Assembly: GCF_016820635.1 (NCBI RefSeq)
Contig: NZ_WSFU01000108.1
Span: forward strand, 1 to 53,888
DNA from: Anaeromonas gelatinilytica
GTDB taxonomy: Bacteria; Bacillota; Clostridia; Tissierellales; SIT17
Reading direction: 5' to 3'
Length of the DNA stretch: 53,888 nt
In this document: positions 3 to 31,424 of the stretch, one piece after another
Layout: every line of letters starts with the position of its first letter
Position numbering within the stretch: position 1 is the stretch's first letter
Position numbers and translations under genes: made by a program
The notes under the pieces: generated by a model
Seen by the model: the letters and a program-made list of their open reading frames with translations, nothing else
Databases searched by the model: none
What the model was told of the DNA's origin: nothing

Positions 3-321
3 TTAATCATTTTTCTTTAACTCCTTTAAAACTTTTTTAGCTTTATTAGCTCTTTCCCTTGAAGTCTACAACTAAAAACAGTAACTATTTGGATTAAATC
101 TTCAACCAACTCCTATTCTTCCCGTTTCAATGCTAAAATGAGTAATTTTAGTATAGATATTCGGTCTTCTTTCCTGTTACTCCCTGCTTATCTACCAATA
201 TCAATCTCTTATTAGTAAATAGAAACATGTCCCTTATTAGTTTATATGCTTTTTCCACACGCTCATTTGGTGCTAAAATATCATCATATTTCTCTTGTAT
301 CTTTTCTGAATTAGTTTCTGA
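3..321 (-). pseudogene. Decayed PH-domain (YvbH-like) gene remnant
   Basis: Read on the minus strand, an open stretch near 290-165 gives APNERVEKAYKLIRDMFLFT followed by NKRLILVDKQGVTGKKTEYL, which looks like a bacterial PH-domain (bPH_2) protein. It stops at 148-150. In another frame, 150-115 continues with KITHFSIETG, the next expected piece of such domains, so codons were lost and the frame broke. A third fragment ends RANKAKKVLKELKKND at a stop at 3-5. A good ribosome site lies at 322-329 but no start codon follows in frame. I read this as one gene with several lesions; the family name rests on recall. Confidence 0.6.
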
Positions 322-2984: not shown

Positions 2985-3096
2985 TATTTCAGTATCTCTA
3001 TATTTTCAATTATAATATTAAAATATACACTCATTTCTCTCATGAATATACTATTATTGAATTCTTACCAAAATCAATTATAATTAGACGTAAAAA

Positions 3097-21623: not shown

Positions 21624-24362
21624 CTATCTACCACAACATTTTTTATATTTCTTACCACTGCCACAGGGACAAGGATCATTTCTACCTATTTTTTTGCCTT
21701 TAACTACAGTTTTTTGTACTTGATTCTCTTTATTACCATGACTAGAACTAGTAACTTTAGCTACTCTTTCTCTTTCTATTTTCTCCGCTGGTTGTAAGTT
21801 ATATAAATGTTTTACTGTATCCAACTGAATATTTTTTATCATTTCATTAAACATATCAAAACCTTCTACTTGATATGCTCTTACTGGGTCTTCATTTCCC
21901 ATAGCTCTAAGATTAATGCCCTGTCTTAATTGATCCATTGCATCTATATGATCCATCCATTTTCTATCTACTACCTTAAGAAGTACAACTCTCTCCAATT
22001 CTCTTAACTGTTCTTCCCCTACTTCCTTTTCCTTCGCTTCATATTTTCCTTTGGCTATTTCTTTTAACATTTCACACAAGTCTTCTTTAGTCAAAGACTC
22101 TTTATCGTCTATTTGAAGACCTTCTTCAGAAAGAAATATAGGTAATAAATAGTCTTCTATACCTTGATAATCCCATTCTTCTGGATACTTGCTATTAGTC
22201 GTATATATATCAACTACACCATCAATTGTCTCATTTACCATACCTTGAACATAATCTCTCATGTTCTCTCCTTCAAGCACCTTTTTTCTCTGCTCATATA
22301 TTACTTCTCTTTGCTTATTCATTACATCATCATATTGTAATACATGTTTTCTAATAGAAAAGTTCTTACTCTCTACCTTCCTCTGAGCAGATTCAATGGA
22401 CTTATTTAATAGTTTATGTTCTAAGGGTTCATCATCAGGCATGCCTAATGAATCTACTATTCCTTTCATTCTTTCACTACCAAACAACCTCATTAAATCA
22501 TCTTCTAATGATATAAAGAATAAAGATGATCCAGGATCTCCTTGACGACCAGAACGTCCCCTTAACTGATTGTCAATACGTCTTGATTCATGTCGCTCTG
22601 TACCTATTATATGAAGTCCTCCAGCTTCTAATACATTATTTTGTTCATCTTTAGTCTCTTCTTTATACTTTTGAAGAAGTTTATTATATACTTCTTTTGC
22701 TGCAATTACTTCCTCATCATCTCTATCTATATGACTATCTGCTAAGGCTATTATACGATCTGAATAACCTTTTTTCTTCATCGCTGACTTAGCCATAAAT
22801 TCAGGATTACCTCCTAAAACAATATCAGTACCACGACCAGCCATATTTGTAGCTATAGTAACTGCACCATACCTTCCTGCCTGAGCTACTATCTCTGCCT
22901 CCCTCTCATGTTGCTTAGCATTTAGTACTTCATGTTTTATTCCTTGCTTTTTAAGCAATTTACTCAAAATCTCGGAATTTTCTATACTAATAGTCCCAAC
23001 TAATATTGGTTGACCATTAGAATGTCTTTTCTTTATTTCCTCAACTATAGCTTTAAACTTCACTTCTATACTTTTATATATTAAATCAGATTTATCTTCT
23101 CTAATTACTGGTTTATTTGTAGGGATCTCTACTACATTCATATTATATATATGCTCAAATTCTTCTTCTTCTGTTTTAGCAGTACCAGTCATTCCGGATA
23201 GCTTATTATACATTCTAAAGAAATTTTGGAATGTAATAGTGGCTAAAGTCTTTGATTCTCTCTTCACATCTAAACTTTCCTTAGCCTCTATCGCTTGATG
23301 AAGACCATCAGAGTATCTTCTACCAAACATAAGTCTTCCGGTAAAATTATCAACTATAATTACTTCTCCATCCTTTACTACATAGTCCTTATCTTTAAAC
23401 ATTATATTTTGAGCTTTTAATGCTTGATTTATATGATGACTTAATTCCATATTTTCTGCATCAGCTAAATTTTCTATTCCAAAGAAATCCTCAGCCTTTT
23501 TTACACCCTTTTCTGATAATGTTACAGTCTTAGCTTTTTCATCTATGGTAAAATCCATCTTTTCTTCCTTCATTTCTCGAACAAATGGATCTTTTTTCTT
23601 TTCACTTTCCTCTATTACTCTTCCCTTTAATGTTCTTGCAAAATTATCAGAAGCTCTATATAATTCTGTGGGTTTATCTCCCTGTCCAGATATTATTAGA
23701 GGAGTTCTAGCTTCATCTATAAGGATACTGTCTACCTCATCTATCACGGCGTAATTAAGGTCCCTTTGAACCATTTCCTTTTTATATATAACCATATTAT
23801 CTTTTAGGTAATCAAAACCATATTCATTATTAGTTCCATAGGTAATATCTGCATTATAAGCTTTTCTTCTATCCTCTACACTTAGACCATGAACTATTAC
23901 TCCTGTAGTTAAACCCAAAAAATTATATAATTTACTCATAGTTTCCCCTTGGAATGAAGCAAGATAATCATTCACTGTAACTAAATGAGCTCCCTTTCCT
24001 TCCAGAGCATTTAGATATAAAGGCATTGAAGCAACATATGTTTTACCTTCTCCAGTTTTCATCTCAGCAATATTTCCTTCATGAAGGACTATTCCACCTA
24101 ATAATTGTACTCTATATGGTCTTAAGCCTAAAACCCTGACAGAGGCCTCCCTTACTACTGCAAAAGCCTCCACTAATATATCATCCAATGTTTCTCCATT
24201 AGCTAATCTATTTTTAAATTCTTTTGTTTTCCCTTGTAATTCTTTGTCATTTAACTTTTTCATATCTGGTTCTAAGGCTTCTATTTTATCCAACAATGGA
24301 TTCAGTCTCTTTATCTCTCTATTACTATACGTACCAAATATTTTTTCAAATATTCTTTTCAT
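21624..24362 (-). CDS. secA: Preprotein translocase ATPase SecA
   Basis: Motor ATPase that drives proteins through SecYEG at the membrane. The 912-residue protein has Walker A ([20 protein letters not shown]), the DEVD-type box ([20 protein letters not shown]), the preprotein-binding domain and helicase motifs ending [15 protein letters not shown], and a C-terminal zinc finger [13 protein letters not shown]. Length and domain order are normal. The start ATG follows GAAGGGTGG. It is followed closely by prfB, a common Firmicutes arrangement. Confidence 0.97.
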
Positions 24363-24426
24363 TTATTTACCACCCTTCATAGTTAACCTATCTTATAATT
24401 TTATCACTAATAGACTTTCTATACAA

Positions 24427-24457
24427 ATGGGACATGGGGACGGTTCTCGTGTCCCAT
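24427..24457. repeat. REP-like palindromic element remnant
   Basis: ATGGGACA at 24427-24434 pairs with TGTCCCAT at 24450-24457 around a GC-rich middle (TGGGGACGGTTCTCG). From memory, this near-palindrome, related to GGGACAC...GTGTCCC, recurs in many clostridial genomes near REP-associated tyrosine transposase genes. Its base composition differs sharply from its surroundings. Only one copy is present here. Confidence 0.55.
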
Positions 24458-24480
24458 TATTCGACAAGAATCAACAAAAA

Positions 24481-24506
24481 AGATAAACAGTATATACTGT
24501 TTATCT
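24481..24506 (-). terminator. Intrinsic terminator of the DUF5317 gene
   Basis: Perfect 26-base palindrome spanning the stop codon of the DUF5317 gene, followed on the minus strand by TTTTTTG. Confidence 0.85.
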
Positions 24507-25082
24507 GCCAAAGCCAAAACTCATTTTTCTATCTAATCCTTTATCAGTCATAGAAGTTTCTATAAATACAAATAGTCCTAAAGCTATTAAAAAATCTCCT
24601 ATACTGAATACAGCAGGAAAAGGAAAATATTCTGAAATAGCAATAGTTTGTGCTAATACAGGAAAATGAATATTCTCTGTTAAACTAGTAAATAGCCTAA
24701 GTTCTCCTGATTGAAGCAATTGCACGGTTTCACTCATTCCTGCCAACTCTAAAGCCTTTATTGATACCGGCATATTTCCACTATTCATAATAAATACAAA
24801 GAAATTTAATGCACTTCCTATCAAAACTATTATTAGAGGTATATTTCTAATATTTATTAAAATACCTATAAACAATAATATATAGGATGCAATATAGATT
24901 TCATCCATATAATCAGAAATTAATTTTATATCACTATTTCCAAAAAATATTATTACATATTGAAGAATTAATGCCAATATAAATATACCTAAATATTTGA
25001 AATTTAAATTTCCTAATCTCCTTAACTTCCCACCTTTAAGCCAACCAACTATAATGGCAAGTATTAAAAATATCCAAATCAT
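24501..25082 (-). CDS. DUF5317-family membrane protein
   Basis: Uncharacterised membrane protein of 193 residues with about five to six hydrophobic segments. Recognisable family features are the start WIFLILAIIVGWLKGGKLRR, the central FFVFIMNSGNMPVSIKALEL and the C-terminal FPAVFSIGDFLIALGLFVFI. I recall this pattern as DUF5317, common in Clostridia; no function is known. It starts behind GGAGG and is transcribed alone, between hpf and secA, with its own terminator. Confidence 0.75.
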   Translation of the reverse strand: MIWIFLILAIIVGWLKGGKLRRLGNLNFKYLGIFILALILQYVIIFFGNSDIKLISDYMDEIYIASYILLFIGILINIRNIPLIIVLIGSALNFFVFIMNSGNMPVSIKALELAGMSETVQLLQSGELRLFTSLTENIHFPVLAQTIAISEYFPFPAVFSIGDFLIALGLFVFIETSMTDKGLDRKMSFGFGR

Positions 25083-25284
25083 TTGACTAAACCTCCCTGA
25101 ATTTTCTATCTCTATCTACTATTAATTCTATATATATATCAAATATCCTTCTTTTAAATTTGAGATAATATTATACACTTTTTTCCATAAAATTTAATTA
25201 TAAATATATATTAAAATACGAATATTATAAAAAATAATTATTTATATTACAATGTAGTTATGAATATATAATAAAATATAAACA

Positions 25285-25379
25285 ATGAATGAAGGCTTTG
25301 AGTATTTTGTTAAGGAAATCCCGTGAATGAAAGGAAAAAATTCGTTAAGAAATTTGAACTCAAAAAATAAATAAACCTT
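25285..25379. other. Candidate structured RNA or repeat element downstream of hpf
   Basis: Within the 376-base gap between the DUF5317 gene and hpf, AAGG (25292) can pair with CCTT (25376-25379) and TTTGAGT (25297-25303) with ACTCAAA, enclosing about 60 bases. Inside are two imperfect direct repeats: GAATGAAGG...GTTAAGGAAAT and GAATGAAAGG...GTTAAGAAATT. No ORF fits. The GC content is higher than the flanks. Family unknown; the rest of the gap (25083-25284) is plain AT-rich sequence. Confidence 0.4.
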
Positions 25380-25419
25380 AGAAATTATAAAAACCCAACA
25401 ATATATTTATTCACATAGT

Positions 25420-25449
25420 AAAAGGTAAAGAAATCTTTCTTCACCTTTT
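25420..25449 (-). terminator. Intrinsic terminator of hpf
   Basis: AAAAGGT and ACCTTTT close a stem extended by AAGAAA/TTTCTT just after the hpf stop; the minus-strand 3' side ends in CCTTTT. Confidence 0.7.
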
Positions 25450-25458
25450 AAGTATATT

Positions 25459-25989
25459 TTAAATTTCAGGTTCAATCAACCCATAATTTCCATCTTTTCT
25501 TTTATATATAACATTTGTTTCATTAGTATCTGCATGTTTATATACGAAGAAATTATGTCCTAATAATTCCATCTGTAATATAGCTTCCTCATCATCCATT
25601 GGTTTCATTGCAAATTTCTTTGTCTTTACAATTTTAGGTTCATCATCTTCATCTTCTTTATATTCTGGAATATTTTCAAACCTTATAGTTCTACCATTAT
25701 TTTTTCTTCTTTCTAATTTAGTCTTATGCTTTCTAATTTGTCTTTCTAATAAATCTACCACCTTATCAATAGATGTATACATGTCTTCTGTTTCTTCCTC
25801 TGCACGTATTATAGCACTTGAAAAGGGAACACTTACCTCTATTATCTGTCTATTCTTTTCTACAGTCATCGTAACCTTTACTCTAGCGCCTTTTTGAAAA
25901 AATTTATCTAGCTTGTCTAACTTCCTATTCACCGTTTCTCTAAGTCCTTCTGTTACCTGCATATTTTTTCCACTAATAATAATGTCCAT
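25459..25989 (-). CDS. hpf: Ribosome hibernation-promoting factor, long form
   Basis: Long-form HPF (RaiA/YvyD family), 176 residues, which binds 70S ribosomes and dimerises them to 100S when growth slows. The N-terminal domain starts MDIIISGKNMQVTEGLRETV and continues through KVTMTVEKNRQIIEVSVPF; a charged linker (about 95-120) joins a C-terminal dimerisation domain with KTKKFAMKPMDDEEAILQME and VIYKRKDGNYGLIEPEI. The ATG at 25989 was chosen, eight bases after AAGGGAG; a TTG six codons upstream overlaps that site. A GC-rich hairpin sits in its leader at 26021-26035. Confidence 0.93.
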   Translation of the reverse strand: MDIIISGKNMQVTEGLRETVNRKLDKLDKFFQKGARVKVTMTVEKNRQIIEVSVPFSSAIIRAEEETEDMYTSIDKVVDLLERQIRKHKTKLERRKNNGRTIRFENIPEYKEDEDDEPKIVKTKKFAMKPMDDEEAILQMELLGHNFFVYKHADTNETNVIYKRKDGNYGLIEPEI

Positions 25990-26020
25990 AAATTCAACTC
26001 CCTTCAATTTATATGAAGTA

Positions 26021-26035
26021 ATCGGCGAAGCCGAT
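26021..26035 (-). other. GC-rich hairpin in the hpf leader
   Basis: ATCGGC and GCCGAT form a 6-bp stem with a 3-base loop about 30 bases upstream of the hpf start codon, in otherwise AT-rich sequence. Possibly an mRNA stability or translation element. Confidence 0.4.
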
Positions 26036-26206
26036 CAAAAATGATAACTACTAAATATTTTATGAAGTTTATTATCTATATTAATACCCAATAAAAAAAT
26101 TTTTTAACATACAATTCAATATGTTTATTTAATATATTCGTATATCTTATCAATATATATCATTATATATCATTTTATGCAACCTATTGAATATTTATTT
26201 AAATTT

Positions 26207-26328
26207 TTATCCACATAATTTTTTCTGGATATGTGAATAAGTATAGGTGAAATCTGTGGATAATGTGTATAAGTTTGTGGATTACTGTTAATTAGTACAA
26301 GTTATTGTGTGGAAAAAGATGTGGAATA
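26207..26328. other. DnaA-box cluster
   Basis: Four perfect matches to TTATNCACA lie within 66 bases: TTATCCACA (26207-26215, plus), and on the minus strand TTATTCACA (26232-26240), TTATCCACA (26255-26263) and TTATACACA (26264-26272, abutting the previous). Weaker ones follow on the minus strand: TAATCCACA (26276-26284), TTTTCCACA (26308-26316) and TATTCCACA (26320-26328). Very AT-rich DNA lies on both sides (26040-26205 and 26330-26400). This is the content of the gene-free stretch 26036-26406. Confidence 0.75.
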
Positions 26329-26406
26329 TATGTTAATTTGATTTATAATATATCAACAATAGATTTTATTAATTTTTAGACAATTATATTTTATTTTATA
26401 TAAAAG

Positions 26407-26428
26407 AAGAGCAGAATATTCTACTCTT
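26407..26428 (+). terminator. Bidirectional-looking hairpin after the GNAT gene
   Basis: AAGAG, one base, AGAATATTCT, one base, CTCTT forms a hairpin beside the GNAT stop. The longest T run (eight) is on the plus strand, but the minus side also reads CTTCTTTTAT, so it may end the minus-strand transcript too. Confidence 0.6.
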
Positions 26429-26432
26429 TTTT

Positions 26433-26903
26433 TTACATCTTATATTCATGTTCTAATATAGATAATACTATCAATGATCTATAACCATTTTTACCCTTTT
26501 TTGATTCCCTTAACACACCTTCAATATTAAATCCTTCAGATAAATATAAAGCTAATCCTCTATGATTATCATCATAAACATCCAACCATAATCTATGACA
26601 TTTCTCTTTTTCAAAAGCTAATTTCTTTATTAATTTTATACTCTCTCTACCATAACCTTTACCCTTTTTATCGATTGCTATTCTTCTAAACTCTATAGAT
26701 TCATCTGCACCACCTATATTGTTTAGCAATACATATCCAACAATTAAATCATCCTCCTTAAGCTTTATAGTAATATGAATTTCACTAGAACTATTAATAG
26801 CTTCAAGATGTCTTTCTTTTGACCAAGAAAATACATATTTACTGTTTTCCTTATTTCTTTCAATTTCTATAATTCTATCCAAATCTTTTTTCTTTGTTTC
26901 CAC
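26433..26903 (-). CDS. GNAT-family N-acetyltransferase
   Basis: GNAT acyltransferase, 156 residues from a GTG start. The acetyl-CoA-binding motif A is IAIDKKGKGYGRESIKLIKK, followed by CHRLWLDVYDDNHRGLALYL, as in RimJ/SpeG-like members. The reading frame stays open upstream and encodes INSIVESERIVF, which looks like the usual family start; a ribosome site GAGGTG lies five bases before the ATC codon at 26937-26939, right after the stop of the transporter gene. Either a rare ATC start is used or the original start was lost. The substrate is unknown. Confidence 0.85.
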   Translation of the reverse strand: METKKKDLDRIIEIERNKENSKYVFSWSKERHLEAINSSSEIHITIKLKEDDLIVGYVLLNNIGGADESIEFRRIAIDKKGKGYGRESIKLIKKLAFEKEKCHRLWLDVYDDNHRGLALYLSEGFNIEGVLRESKKGKNGYRSLIVLSILEHEYKM

Positions 26904-26951
26904 AAATACTATTCTCTCTGACTCTACAATACTGTTGATATTATCACCTCA

Positions 26952-28340
26952 CTAAAATGGTCCATAATTAATAATAACTGACAATGCTACAAATACTGCT
27001 CCTATTGCTGTCCAAATCAGGAATAATGGTAACATCCATTTTGCCCATTTCTCCCAAGTAATACCACCTATAGCTATCGCAGCCATAAAATATCCAGATG
27101 TAGGAGAAATTACATTTGAAAATCCATCTCCTAATTGAAACGCTAATACAGATGTTTGTCTAGTTATCCCAACAACATCTGACATAGGTGCCATTATCGG
27201 CATAGATACTGCGGCCTGACCACTTCCTGATGGAACAAATATATTCATTAAACTTTGAACGAGAAACATTCCTATTCCACTTAATGTAGAAGGTAAACCT
27301 TGAACAAGAGTAGCCATTCCATTAATTATAGTATCTAATATTCTTCCCTCTTCTAATACTACCATAATAGATGTAGCTAATCCAATTACCAAAGCTCCAT
27401 ATACTAACTCCTTAGCACCATTTACAAATTCCTCTCCTATCTCATTTATGCCCAAACCTCCAGCTATACCAGCTAATATTCCTATTATTAAAAAAGTAGC
27501 TGTGAGCTCTGTTATATAAAATTCTAATTTAATTACTCCAAAAGCCAATATTCCCATTCCAACTACTAAAATCCCTAATACTAATTTATGTCTAGTATTA
27601 AATTCTGGTAAGTTATCAATATTAAGATTTTCTTGTTTTATCTTATCTTGCTCATAAGTAGGAGATAATTCAGGCTTTTTCTGTATTTTACTAGCATATC
27701 TATATACATATATTATTGTAACACCTAAAATTGCAGCATAAACTATTAATCTAAATTCTATTCCAGAAAACAAAGGCAATCCTGCTATACCTTGAGCTAT
27801 ACCCACAGTAAAAGGATTTAAAAATGCTCCAGCAAATCCAGCACCTGCTCCTAAAAGTACCATTGCAGTACCAGTAACACTATCAAATCCCAATGCTAAG
27901 GCAAGAGATATTACAATTGGATAGAAGGGTAACATCTCTTCTGCTGAACCTAACATTGCTCCTGCTAAAGAAAATATAAACATTACAACTGGTATAATTA
28001 ATTTTTCTTTACCCTTCATAGCAATTACTGCTTTCCCTATACCAGCATCTATTGCTCCTGTAGATTGAAGTATTCCAAAAGAACCCCCTATCATAAGTAC
28101 AAAGAAAATTATATAGCCTGCACTCTCCATTCCTTGAGGTATTGCTTTAAATAAATCAAATGGTCCTACTGGATTACTTTCTACTTTATGAAAACTTTCT
28201 GGCACAACAAATATTCTTTCTGTATCTGGATCTTCTTCTCTATCAAATTCTCCTGCTGGCACTACATAAGTCAGGATTGCTGCAAAAATTATAATAAAAA
28301 ATAATAATGCATAAGTATGAGGTAATCTAAATTTTTTCAT
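26952..28340 (-). CDS. YfcC-family transporter
   Basis: Membrane transporter of 462 residues, about twelve membrane segments, in the YfcC/DcuC-like group (ion transporter superfamily). It starts MKKFRLPHTYALLFFIIIFA and has the conserved GSAEEMLPFYPIVISLALAL, GAGFAGAFLNPFTVGIAQGI and PSGSGQAAVSMPIMAPMSDV. Members are annotated as carriers of basic amino acids, short peptides or dicarboxylates, mostly untested. It lies 11 bases after an M20 peptidase gene, so it may bring in a peptide or N-acyl amino acid that the peptidase cleaves. Confidence 0.88.
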   Translation of the reverse strand: MKKFRLPHTYALLFFIIIFAAILTYVVPAGEFDREEDPDTERIFVVPESFHKVESNPVGPFDLFKAIPQGMESAGYIIFFVLMIGGSFGILQSTGAIDAGIGKAVIAMKGKEKLIIPVVMFIFSLAGAMLGSAEEMLPFYPIVISLALALGFDSVTGTAMVLLGAGAGFAGAFLNPFTVGIAQGIAGLPLFSGIEFRLIVYAAILGVTIIYVYRYASKIQKKPELSPTYEQDKIKQENLNIDNLPEFNTRHKLVLGILVVGMGILAFGVIKLEFYITELTATFLIIGILAGIAGGLGINEIGEEFVNGAKELVYGALVIGLATSIMVVLEEGRILDTIINGMATLVQGLPSTLSGIGMFLVQSLMNIFVPSGSGQAAVSMPIMAPMSDVVGITRQTSVLAFQLGDGFSNVISPTSGYFMAAIAIGGITWEKWAKWMLPLFLIWTAIGAVFVALSVIINYGPF

Positions 28341-28351
28341 GAAATTTTCTC

Positions 28352-29527
28352 CTATTTACAAATTTTTTCTATCAAATCAAAATATATTTCTGCTGCTTGA
28401 TATATCTCATCTATATCACAAAATTCATCATTAGCATGAGCTTGATTTATATTTCCTGGTCCTAATATAATAGCCTCTGTATACCCATGATTACTTAATA
28501 ATGCAGCATCACTCCATGCTGGAAAAGCTACTGGTTTTCTCTTTTTTCCAGTAAATTTCTCTGTAGATTTCAATGCTTCTTTAACTAATATATGATTCTT
28601 ATCTATACTATGGGGAGTATTTATCATAGAAGCAGTAAATTCTCTTAATGCTCTTATCTCATATTCTCCTCCTGTCCTTGCTACTGCTCTTTTAGCTAAA
28701 TCCTCTAATTCTTCATGAACAGATTCTAATGTTTCACTTGGAAGCCACCTTCTATCTATTTTTAGTACACATTTATCTGGAACAATATTAGGATCATCTC
28801 CCCCATCTATAACACCTACATTTACTGTTCCATTACCTAATAAATCAAATTTTCTATTTTCTAATATTTCTGAAAATTCTTCATATATTAAACGATTAAA
28901 TTCTGAGGCAGTATATATAGCATTGATTCCTTCCTTAGGTTTACTTCCATGAGTCGATCTTCCTTTGAACATAATTTCTATCCATTCCATGCCTTTATGG
29001 GCAATAGATACATTTAATTCCGTAGGTTCTCCTATTACTGCCATCTTGGGATTAATGCCTTTCTTTATTAATCTCTCTGTACCTTTAGAACGTTCTTCTT
29101 CATCTATTACTCCTGCAAACATCACAGTTTTATCTAATTTCTGCCCGGATCTCTTCATAGCTACTATAGCTGCTAACATAGCTGTTATTCCCCCCTTCAT
29201 ATCAGCAGACCCTCTACCATAAAGTTTTCCATCCTTTATAAAAGGTTTAAAAGCATCATAATCCATATCAAATCCTGGTATTGTATCGATATGTCCATTA
29301 AACATTAATTCTATATCATCAGTATTTCCTCGTAATTTCCCATATACATTAGGTCTATTTTTCTCTATTATATCTACCTCATTTTCAATGTCTTCCTTAT
29401 CCAATAACGCATGAATATATTCTGCAACCTTTGATTCCTTTATTTCTGTATCCTTATGTCCTTCAATAGATACCAAATCTTGAACAATTTTAATTATCTC
29501 TTTTTTGCTAATAAAATCTTTTAACAT
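28352..29527 (-). CDS. M20-family metallopeptidase (ArgE/DapE-like)
   Basis: Zinc-dependent M20 amidohydrolase, 391 residues. Metal ligands and catalytic residues appear in order: MFNGHIDTIPG (His and Asp), YGRGSADMKGG (Asp), GVIDEEERSKGTERL (catalytic Glu pair), VIGEPTELNVSIAHKG, and a C-terminal His in GPGNINQAHANDEF. Such enzymes cut acyl or dipeptide bonds, for example in acetylornithine, succinyl-diaminopimelate or dipeptides. The start at 29527 is set by GGGAGG eight bases upstream, ignoring a longer ORF. It is the first gene of the operon, and a candidate ArsR operator lies just upstream. Substrate unknown. Confidence 0.88.
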   Translation of the reverse strand: MLKDFISKKEIIKIVQDLVSIEGHKDTEIKESKVAEYIHALLDKEDIENEVDIIEKNRPNVYGKLRGNTDDIELMFNGHIDTIPGFDMDYDAFKPFIKDGKLYGRGSADMKGGITAMLAAIVAMKRSGQKLDKTVMFAGVIDEEERSKGTERLIKKGINPKMAVIGEPTELNVSIAHKGMEWIEIMFKGRSTHGSKPKEGINAIYTASEFNRLIYEEFSEILENRKFDLLGNGTVNVGVIDGGDDPNIVPDKCVLKIDRRWLPSETLESVHEELEDLAKRAVARTGGEYEIRALREFTASMINTPHSIDKNHILVKEALKSTEKFTGKKRKPVAFPAWSDAALLSNHGYTEAIILGPGNINQAHANDEFCDIDEIYQAAEIYFDLIEKICK

Positions 29528-29549
29528 AGTATTTTTCCTCCCAATAGTG

Positions 29550-29569
29550 TATATGTTTACACATATCAA
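29550..29569 (-). promoter_or_regulatory. Shared motif (ArsR operator?) before the M20 peptidase gene
   Basis: Minus strand TTGATATGTGTAAACATATA. Its core ATATGT-TTAC-ACATAT is a perfect 6-4-6 inverted repeat. The same 20-base motif with two or three changes stands before the other YfcC operon. A TTGACA at 29589-29594 would place it over the -10 region. Confidence 0.6.
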
Positions 29570-29637
29570 TTCAATTGTTAAAGCTATATGTCAACTATTC
29601 TAGTTCATAACACATTAATCCCTCCCTTTTATTTTTT

Positions 29638-29669
29638 ATAAGTTCATATGTTTAAAATAATGAACTTAT
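29638..29669. other. Inverted repeat between arsR-type gene and M20 gene
   Basis: ATAAGTTCAT and ATGAACTTAT pair with a 12-base loop. The loop contains ATATGTTTA, the left half of the candidate ArsR motif. On the minus strand it is followed by AAAAAA, so it is a poor terminator; an extra operator is possible. Confidence 0.4.
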
Positions 29670-29697
29670 TTATTATATATATACCCTTTTAAAAATA

Positions 29698-29982
29698 TTA
29701 ATAACTAATAAATCCTAAAATTGATTGAGCTAAAGAAGTAAGAACATAATTATTCACTGAATAAAAGGTTTCCTTCCCTTCTTTTCTTGATTCTACTATC
29801 CTAGCTCTTTTAAGTATCTGAAGATGATGAGATATAGTAGGCCTAGAAACCTTAGAGTTTTGAGCAATTTCATTTACATTCATTTCTCTATTTCCTAATA
29901 ACTTTAATATATCTATTCTAGTTTCATCGGCTAAAGCTTTCAATATTTCTATATCTATATCATTGTTATTAAATCCTATCAT
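29698..29982 (-). CDS. ArsR-family helix-turn-helix regulator
   Basis: Small winged-helix repressor, 94 residues, of the ArsR/SmtB family. It has the opening ILKALADETRIDILKLLGNR and the recognition helix region IAQNSKVSRPTISHHLQILK, and lacks the usual Cys-rich metal sites (no cysteine at all), so it probably senses something other than metal. It is 24 bases after a YfcC transporter gene and upstream of the M20-YfcC operon. Matching motifs before both operons suggest that it regulates both. Confidence 0.88.
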   Translation of the reverse strand: MIGFNNNDIDIEILKALADETRIDILKLLGNREMNVNEIAQNSKVSRPTISHHLQILKRARIVESRKEGKETFYSVNNYVLTSLAQSILGFISY

Positions 29983-30006
29983 ATTTTTACTCCTAATAAA
30001 TTCATT

Positions 30007-31383
30007 TTAAAATGGTCCATATCCTATTATACTAGAAATTATCAATAATATACAACCCTCTATAAACCATATTATAAATAAAGGTATAAACCATTTAACC
30101 CATTTTTTCCATGTTATACCACCTATAGTCAATGCCGCCATAAAATATCCCGACGTGGGAGCTATTACATTAGTAAATCCATCACCAAATTGAAATGCTA
30201 ATACAGCAGTTTGTCTAGTTATTCCAGATAAATCTGCCACATTCTTCATTATAGGCATAGTTACTGCAGCCTGCCCACTTCCAGAAGTAATAAATAAATC
30301 TATTATAGTCTGACTAATAAACATACCTATAATTCCAGCTAATGATCCAATTCCCTTTATTGATTCAGCTAAGATGTATATTATAGTATCCATTATTTGC
30401 CCTGTTTCCATTACCGTCATTACAGATTTAGCAAGACCTATTATCAATGCTCCGTATACCTGATTAGAAGATCCTTTCATAAATTCTGATACAATTCTAC
30501 CAGAACTAAAACCTCCTAATAATCCTGAAACTATACCCATTAATAAAAAAGTAGTTGAAATTTCAGTAATATAAAAATCAAATCTTATTATTCCTACTAA
30601 CAGAAATATAAGTGATAAAATTAAAACTAAAATAACTCTCATATCTTTTTTATCTAATTTAATTTGATCATTTATACTTAAATTTCTATTAGAATCATAT
30701 TTTTCATCTAAAGCTAATTTTCTTCCTTTTATTTTTGTTCCATATCTATATACAAAAATAATAGCAGTAGATAAAAATACTACATAAGAAATAATCCTTA
30801 TAGAAATACCTGAAAATAAAGGTAATTCTGACACATTTTGAGCTATACCGGTAGTAAAAGGATTTAACACTCCAGCCACAAATCCAGAACCAGTTCCTAG
30901 TAAAATCATTACGACTCCAGTAAGTTTATCAAATCCTAATGCTAAAGATAAACTTATAATCATAGTATAAAAAGGTAATGCTTCCTCTGCGGTACCAAAC
31001 ACTGTTCCAGCTAAGGAAAATGCTATCATTATCAATGGAATTACATTCTTTTCCTTACCTTTATATCTTATTACTATATCTTTTATTATTCTATTAATAG
31101 TTCCAGTAGCATTTATAATACCAAGACTACCTCCTGCAATTAATACAAATACTATTATATTTCCTGATTGCATCATACCTTCAGGGATAGAATTGAATAT
31201 ATCAAATACCGAAAGAGAAGATTTTTCAGTCCTTGTATAACTATCTGGAACAACATAAGTAATACCTGTCTCTTCATCTATATATCTTTCATAAGTACCT
31301 GATGGAATTATATAAGACATTAAACCCATTATTATTATTATTATAAATAAAAGCACATATGAATTAGGTATCCTATTAGTCAT
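30007..31383 (-). CDS. YfcC-family transporter (second copy)
   Basis: Paralogue of the transporter at 26952-28340, 458 residues, about twelve membrane segments. Shared segments are GTAEEALPFYTMIISLSLAL, PFTTGIAQNVSELPLFSGIS and SGSGQAAVTMPIMKNVADLS, in the same order and at the same spacing. The start at 31383 follows GGAGGAGTTATT, eleven codons into a longer ORF. It is paired with the ArsR gene, while its sister is paired with an M20 peptidase; substrates may be related. Two paralogues in a row suggest duplication with later divergence. Confidence 0.87.
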   Translation of the reverse strand: MTNRIPNSYVLLFIIIIIMGLMSYIIPSGTYERYIDEETGITYVVPDSYTRTEKSSLSVFDIFNSIPEGMMQSGNIIVFVLIAGGSLGIINATGTINRIIKDIVIRYKGKEKNVIPLIMIAFSLAGTVFGTAEEALPFYTMIISLSLALGFDKLTGVVMILLGTGSGFVAGVLNPFTTGIAQNVSELPLFSGISIRIISYVVFLSTAIIFVYRYGTKIKGRKLALDEKYDSNRNLSINDQIKLDKKDMRVILVLILSLIFLLVGIIRFDFYITEISTTFLLMGIVSGLLGGFSSGRIVSEFMKGSSNQVYGALIIGLAKSVMTVMETGQIMDTIIYILAESIKGIGSLAGIIGMFISQTIIDLFITSGSGQAAVTMPIMKNVADLSGITRQTAVLAFQFGDGFTNVIAPTSGYFMAALTIGGITWKKWVKWFIPLFIIWFIEGCILLIISSIIGYGPF

Positions 31384-31404
31384 AATAACTCCTCCAAAAA
31401 ATAT

Positions 31405-31424
31405 TATAAGTTTATACATATCAA
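31405..31424 (-). promoter_or_regulatory. Shared motif (ArsR operator?) before the second YfcC gene
   Basis: Minus strand TTGATATGTATAAACTTATA, the partner of the motif at 29550-29569. A TATAAT-like element (31403-31408) overlaps its downstream end. No convincing -35 box. Confidence 0.55.

Follow-up and report, generated by a model that had tools for sequence, protein, structure and literature searches.

The locus between hpf and the GNAT gene

The window (the whole stretch of 53,888 nucleotides that was analysed) carries on its minus strand the gene for the ribosome hibernation-promoting factor (hpf) and, upstream of it, a GNAT gene, and the gap between these two co-oriented genes, in which no open reading frame of at least 80 amino acids was found, holds a dense cluster of DnaA boxes (Table 1). 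Four exact copies of TTATNCACA, one on the plus and three on the minus strand, fall within 66 bp (26207-26272). The cluster and its gene-free, co-oriented surroundings are thus as a sequence-only reading of this DNA had described them, and of the three near matches that it counted within 122 bases two stand, with one mismatch each, whereas the third (26320-26328) has two mismatches. In three congeners (G001, G002 and G003) a one-mismatch box occupies the position of this weak extra box. The same reading placed the clustering far above chance, and rightly so: 200 first-order Markov shuffles yielded at most one exact box per 66 bp, against the four observed, and the shuffle maximum of boxes with at most one mismatch per 122 bp was 4, against 6 observed. 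Over its full length the window shows no enrichment, with 91 sites of at most one mismatch versus 90 expected, and exact boxes in the whole genome number 160 versus 131 for the reversed pattern. The GC content is 0.29 in the cluster versus 0.18 (26020-26206) and 0.13 (26329-26420) in the flanks, which had correctly been called AT-rich.

Table 1. Features of the hpf-GNAT locus, with positions in the window.
Feature	Position	Strand	Remarks
Weak extra box	26320..26328	-	TATTCCACA, 2 mismatches; 12 bp before A
DnaA box A	26308..26316	-	TTTTCCACA, 1 mismatch; 32 bp before B
DnaA box B	26276..26284	-	TAATCCACA, 1 mismatch
DnaA box C	26264..26272	-	TTATACACA, exact; 12 bp after B
DnaA box D	26255..26263	-	TTATCCACA, exact; 9 bp after C, no gap
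DnaA box E	26232..26240	-	TTATTCACA, exact; 23 bp after D
Inverted DnaA box F	26207..26215	+	TTATCCACA, exact; directed towards the array, 48 bp from D
Core module matched by sequence model R1	26250..26318	-	this copy was itself used in building R1
hpf, ribosome hibernation-promoting factor	25459..25989, from ATG	-	TIGR00741; neighbour, outside the module
GNAT gene	26433-26903	-	upstream neighbour of the module
Terminator-like hairpin with T-rich tail	26407..26428	-	behind the GNAT gene; 1 in 25900-26460, shuffle mean 0.1
Promoter-like GTTAAA-N13-GGGTAT	26084..26108	-	119 bp before hpf, ~100 bp from box F

The hairpin behind the GNAT gene probably marks where the upstream unit ends, which would place the module beyond that unit. 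The motif GTTAAA-N13-GGGTAT is a possible separate promoter of hpf; it resembles the sigma-B type of Bacillus subtilis yvyD, the hpf gene of that species. An RNA element at the locus was rejected, there being no Rfam match at the gathering threshold in 24000-28000. The closest named homologue of hpf is that of Anaeromonas frigoriresistens (80% identity), and the host, contrary to what had been implied at the outset, is probably not a Bacillus. The stretch 26433-31419, between fliS and the module, holds the GNAT gene and a YfcC-like transporter gene and, by eye, also a second YfcC-like gene and an M20-type peptidase-like gene. One congener (G002) shares the GNAT and YfcC-like neighbours of the module, and the other two have fliS there.

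A conserved spacing grammar upstream of hpf

Matches to hpf were obtained in 214 genomes (40 + 181, with 7 shared), and the 117 with the better hpf scores were examined; one locus (L099), with 59 bp of upstream DNA, was dropped to leave 116, and another (L144) was kept with only 207 bp, family f60 being represented by these two alone. In the direction of hpf, the boxes come in a common order, namely A, 30-32 bp, B, 12 bp, C, 9 bp, D, and in the host's order D is often followed by E at 23 bp and by the inverted box F at about 50 bp from D. Under strict limits (at most one mismatch in each box and at most two in total), the trio B-12-C-9-D is present upstream of hpf in 53 of the 116 genomes and 24 of the 44 families, so that the cluster is indeed found beside hpf in relatives; the strict trio occurs on the opposite strand in none of the 116 regions and in none of 20 shuffled sets. 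When all 36x36 spacing pairs from 9 to 44 bp were tried, (12,9) came out at the top with its 53 loci, the median pair having 0, and the next commonest pairs (21,23; 9,23; 12,32; 31,21; 44,9) are sub-spacings of the same array.

Looser limits raise the trio to 62 of the 116 regions and 25 families. At this loosest setting it is absent from the other 54 regions, 19 of the 44 families being without any, and the site is thus dispensable in many lineages. Many families look all-or-none: the trio is found in every member of f36 (9/9), f38 (5/5), f41 (4/4) and f64 (4/4), and in no member of f52 (0/8), f37 (0/4) and f57 (0/4). In f4 (1/6), f24 (2/5) and f42 (2/4), part of the members have it. Among the 62 trio loci, box A (at most one mismatch, 30-32 bp before B) is present in 45 and box E (at most one mismatch, 23 bp) in 22, all but one of these (in f80) belonging to families of the host's order; box D is the least variable of B, C and D, reading TTATCCACA in 47. 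A motif of the GTTAAA-N13-GGGTAT type lies within 300 bp of hpf in 18 of the 116 regions, 9 of the 62 trio loci among them, and 0-1 times per shuffled set of 116.

An alignment of 50 copies has the boxes as its conserved columns, and the spacer between A and B is not conserved. The mean A-B distance of 31.1 bp corresponds to 2.97 helical turns at 10.5 bp, and the B-D distance of 21 bp to 2.0 turns; thus, judged by length, A, B and D should be exposed on a common face of the double helix, C lying between B and D.

Distribution in the host's order and in Bacillota

A sequence model (R1) was built from 50 hpf-side copies and searched with Infernal, under stricter filters, against the own genome with 40 relatives and against 398 Bacillota genomes drawn evenly from the phylum. 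At E<=0.01, 40 of the 41 genomes of the former set have a match. The hpf place scores 43-63 bits in 27 of the 41, many of these copies being part of R1 itself; likewise, the window copy, with 54.9 bits and E 2.4e-14 in the own-genome search, was used in building the model, and the only other match listed in its genome at E<=0.01 has 17.8 bits. The listed matches away from hpf in the 41 genomes reach at most 34 bits, tsaD clusters included, with the exception of G014, where a match of 47.6 bits lies beside a flgN gene at a contig end and no hpf was found in the genome. In the host's order the module is thus, as a rule, present as a single strong copy.

In the phylum-wide set, R1 matches at E<=1e-6 occur in 204 of the 398 genomes, many of which have two. 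Fifty-nine of the 67 best-scoring copies, which were picked with a model built on hpf copies and to which some genomes contribute two, are found either at the com/fli-hpf-secA junction or 3' of tsaD. By the genes within about 1.5 kb, 21 copies adjoin tsaD, on its 3' side, one an ABC-F gene at a contig end, and 20 hpf, eight of the latter (L232, L252-L257 and L263) having been used to build R1; 17 are at comFC, flgN, fliS, fliD or SBP_bac_3 genes, and 8 elsewhere. Seven of the 17 junction copies were read further out, and hpf follows in six (L306, L307, L310, L316, L317 and L320), where the order is comFC/fli genes, module, SBP_bac_3 gene and then hpf; in the seventh (L309) there is no hpf within the ~9.6 kb available. 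An ABC-type ATPase gene also stands between module and hpf in 5 of the 6 SBP_bac_3 stretches, and secA and prfB mostly come behind hpf, so copies next to SBP_bac_3 genes can belong to the same com/fli-hpf junction. In these six genomes the module stays at the edge of the com/fli block and other genes intervene before hpf; the own genome shows the opposite arrangement, its module being separated from the fli genes by the GNAT and YfcC-like genes. The transporter genes between module and hpf in the six genomes weaken the idea of an hpf promoter element, and the module is thus not simply such an element.

All three copies from one family (f141; L311, L312 and L313) have a large helicase gene downstream of them, by eye of the UvrD/HelD type, and are not at hpf or tsaD, which makes this place a third locus in that family.

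Position on the chromosome and relation to oriC

In 37 single-contig genomes, the 51 copies of at least 35 bits have a median distance from dnaA of 0.32 of the arm, and 45 of them lie within 0.6; by successive tenths of the arm the 51 divide into 3, 10, 11, 8, 9, 4, 2, 2, 1 and 1, the farthest copy being at 0.93. The 51 come from 67 matches of a search made for this purpose, which are not the 67 copies classified above; the 35-bit limit drops three genomes, including G262 with its 31-bit match beside dnaA. For most of the chromosomes the length was rounded to 0.1 Mb.

The sequence-only reading found no dnaA, dnaN or rpmH nearby, and all three turn out to be on another contig (C121) of the 146-contig assembly: the one strong Bac_DnaA match of the genome (264.6 bits, the other three having 20.8-43.2) is there, with rpmH and dnaN adjoining dnaA and box clusters on both sides of it. 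The GC skew of the window is negative at every 2-kb step, from -0.19 to -0.48; hence there is no skew switch in the window, and the cluster has neither the gene neighbourhood nor the skew change of an oriC. The secondary replication origin that had been offered as an alternative, for which DnaA boxes adjoining AT-rich DNA would speak, is therefore extremely improbable, given this lack of a skew change and of dnaA/dnaN context, flanking genes that all run in one direction, and the fact that none of 25 dnaA loci, 14 of which are truncated upstream of dnaA at the start of the record, shares A-(41..45)-C-9-D. Compared with the bipartite Bacillota oriC (rpmH-dnaA-dnaN), the module has the same kind of box and AT-rich surroundings but a different box arrangement. 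Certain oriC arrays nevertheless partly resemble it, with weak R1 matches at two oriC loci, one of 31.2 bits directly after dnaA (G262:C1:1569-1628) and one of 27.7 bits between dnaA and dnaN (L296, in G467).

Copies beside tsaD and the gcp/ydiF region of Bacillus subtilis

Published work is cited here by PMC number, in each case from the portion of the text that was accessible. In B. subtilis, eight regions bind DnaA strongly both in vivo and in vitro, among them gcp/ydiF, from which 16-fold more DNA was recovered with ATP-DnaA than with ADP-DnaA at 55 nM (PMC4447404). As far as the accessible text of that paper goes, the com/fli-hpf-secA junction is not among the eight, and the name yvyD does not occur in it.

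The second conserved place of the module, beside tsaD (gcp), corresponds to this region. In the host's order, 11 tsaD clusters were found with a simple pair pattern rather than with R1, all of them between convergent tsaD and ABC-F genes, and A-42/43-C-9-D is present in 5 of the 11, the own genome's included, whereas 6 are without A-(41..45)-C-9-D. The own cluster (L206, contig C76, 2161-2288), a second extra-oriC cluster of this genome, has the form A-43-C-9-D between convergent tsaD and ABC-F genes and is, to judge by this setting, the homologous place of B. subtilis gcp/ydiF. SirA was detected in 7 of the 398 phylum genomes and, among 14 control genomes, in B. subtilis only. With the limit at E<=0.01, R1 gives 18 matches, spread over six of the seven SirA-bearing Bacilli. 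Fifteen places were fetched, of which five, from 4 genomes, adjoin tsaD/ABC-F, one is at dnaA-dnaN and none is at hpf. Three of these tsaD places were counted, and A-42/43-C-9-D was found in two and the C-9-D doublet in all three.

The spacing of the window copy, A-44-C-9-D, is of this gcp/ydiF type, the reference being the loci of SirA-bearing Bacilli and not the B. subtilis sequence itself. The shared spacings imply an architecture common to the hpf cluster and some of the tsaD clusters. Our first idea of the grammar, in which box B was essential, was dropped, because the fitting tsaD copies of the host's order keep A-42/43-C-9-D; box B appears to be mostly an hpf-side addition in that order. 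Like gcp/ydiF, the module thus comprises several DnaA boxes in an intergenic position outside oriC, but the window copy lies at the com/fli-hpf-secA junction, adjoining hpf and not between tsaD and an ABC-F gene, and adds box B 12 bp before C.

Functional interpretation

Judged from its sequence, the feature in the window is a real, conserved extra-oriC DnaA-box module of the B. subtilis type, that is, a box cluster lying outside oriC, and DnaA very likely binds to it. We consider it reasonably probable that the site sequesters (ATP-)DnaA and delays re-initiation. The head-to-tail boxes A, B, C and D would hold a cooperative DnaA assembly at a site between the flagellar/competence genes and hpf-secA, in most cases within the half of the arm nearer the origin; the replication fork would double this site after initiation, and the new copies would take up DnaA, most likely in the ATP form, lowering the free pool and so postponing a further start at oriC, a mechanism already put forward for the B. 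subtilis clusters. In that species, joint deletion of six clusters leads to early initiation (PMC5295017, PMC13220808), although PMC5295017, in its accessible part, does not count the six as significant regulators; in E. coli, DNA near oriC is dense in boxes and DnaA is held by the chromosome (PMC12371093). It is by analogy with such sites that we infer a titration function for the window cluster, and the initial suggestion of a Bacillus-like titration or replication-control cluster has gained support from a grammar that is kept beside hpf and recurs 3' of tsaD, at the gcp/ydiF place. Weighing against this reading are the many hpf regions that have no trio, the missing hpf-side places among those fetched from SirA-bearing Bacilli, the six tsaD clusters of the host's order with another arrangement, the copies far from the origin and the weak R1 matches at oriC loci. 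Titration alone moreover leaves the exact spacing and orientation unexplained, which points to a defined complex, and such strict spacing would count against a plain sponge.

A defined complex could mean that the site is no passive sponge but switches the nucleotide state of DnaA, like datA (hydrolysis of ATP-DnaA) or DARS (release of ADP). The exact spacing and orientation, where a sponge would need boxes alone, speak for this, as does the 12-bp step from B to C: E. coli DARS1 and DARS2, which are likewise intergenic and between origin and terminus, each have, as we read them, two co-oriented boxes at this distance. In some lineages D is moreover followed by an inverted box at 15-18 bp (at 16 bp in 3 and at 18 bp in 1 of the 62 trio loci, and at 15 bp in L015 and L033), which is not unlike DARS; furthermore, gcp/ydiF strongly prefers ATP-DnaA (PMC4447404), and it is stated to be an open matter whether B. 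subtilis has any regulators of the ATP/ADP balance of DnaA (PMC13220808). The DARS core of three boxes, with box I opposite II and III, is nevertheless not what is found here: the inverted third box of DARS is close by, at 14 and 17 bp after the pair as we read it, although the accessible part of a review gives this spacing as equal in DARS1 and DARS2, whereas the module has a direct box, D, at 9 bp, another direct box 30-32 bp upstream, and in the window its inverted box F only at 48 bp from D. E. coli datA is, like the module, a DnaA-box cluster outside oriC, and it restrains initiation, but it works with IHF, which B. subtilis lacks (PMC13220808), and the A-B spacer of the 50 aligned copies has no conserved non-box block in which another protein could have its site; this missing partner site would count against datA. 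A switch of the datA or DARS kind therefore seems decidedly unlikely, even though sponge and switch cannot be separated from sequence. Unlikely, too, is the wider proposal that the grammar marks a phylum-wide switch element, a long-missed Bacillota counterpart of datA on which head-to-tail DnaA would form one defined ATP-DnaA complex and thereby have its ATP form hydrolysed or locked up. Each chromosome would carry the element at one or two fixed syntenic positions, and the hpf-junction copy would be an unreported main site in Clostridia.

With slightly better prospects, though still on the unlikely side, DnaA might act here as a transcription factor for hpf or the downstream operon, tying ribosome hibernation or amino-acid uptake to the state of replication. 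The module points towards hpf in the trio loci (0/116 on the other strand), the next gene is an SBP_bac_3 transporter gene in many genomes, and clusters of this kind are used by DnaA in B. subtilis to control sda and several operons (PMC4447404). Yet the distance from D to the hpf start varies from 91 to 792 bp, an SBP_bac_3 gene separates module and hpf in the six junction genomes named above, hpf has a promoter-like motif of its own about 100 bp from F, albeit in only 9 of the 62 trio loci, and all 11 tsaD clusters of the host's order lie where two genes converge and no promoter is expected. Very improbable, in our view, is a role in chromosome architecture, with DnaA and DnaD or similar proteins bridging the locus to oriC. 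Its appeal comes from three single-contig genomes of the host's order (G018, G009 and G040), in which dnaA is 788, 381 and 653 kb from the hpf copy and, on the other arm, 786, 386 and 731 kb from a cwlD-side cluster; these similar distances on two arms are suggestive, but they come from three genomes only, and the 50 copies show no conserved partner motif between A and B. Finally, a chance cluster in AT-rich DNA, which the AT-richness of the window and a near-box total no higher than expected might have favoured, has practically no probability left and is ruled out by the 0/200 shuffles and by a spacing that is conserved across families.

Sequestration thus stays our preferred reading, and its bearing is on a field in which the control of DnaA away from oriC is understood for E. 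coli (datA, DARS) and is known in Gram-positives largely from the six B. subtilis clusters. According to PMC4447404, again as accessible, there have been too few regions to define the features, box spacing and orientation included, that give a preference for ATP-DnaA; one grammar in more than 200 sampled genomes, mostly at two syntenic loci, makes this question directly testable. For Clostridia, the module is a concrete candidate control site; the C. difficile origin paper (PMC7561715), in the portion accessible, treats only oriC boxes. Neither the hpf-side site nor the grammar was found in print in the open-access literature searched, and as far as that search reaches, the com/fli-hpf-secA place and the spacing grammar are new.

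Further clusters

A third cluster is conserved in the host's order: all seven of its loci (L200, L202, L203, L209, L211, L213 and L217) have a contiguous C-9-D doublet and, 15 bp further on, an inverted box. A cwlD-like gene adjoins it in six of these, L213 ending before it, and rpsI in three; the cwlD-like gene is TIGR02883 in L202, with similar genes in L200 and L203. Two exact boxes, 32 bp apart from start to start, were also noted on a further contig of the own genome (C78; L207, 2752-2792) and in a congener (L214 of G001, 3049-3089). This 41-nt pair, being without the grammar, was left out as a copy of the module; it is kept in the genus (G000-G003), within or across frames that by eye resemble pyrimidine-operon genes.
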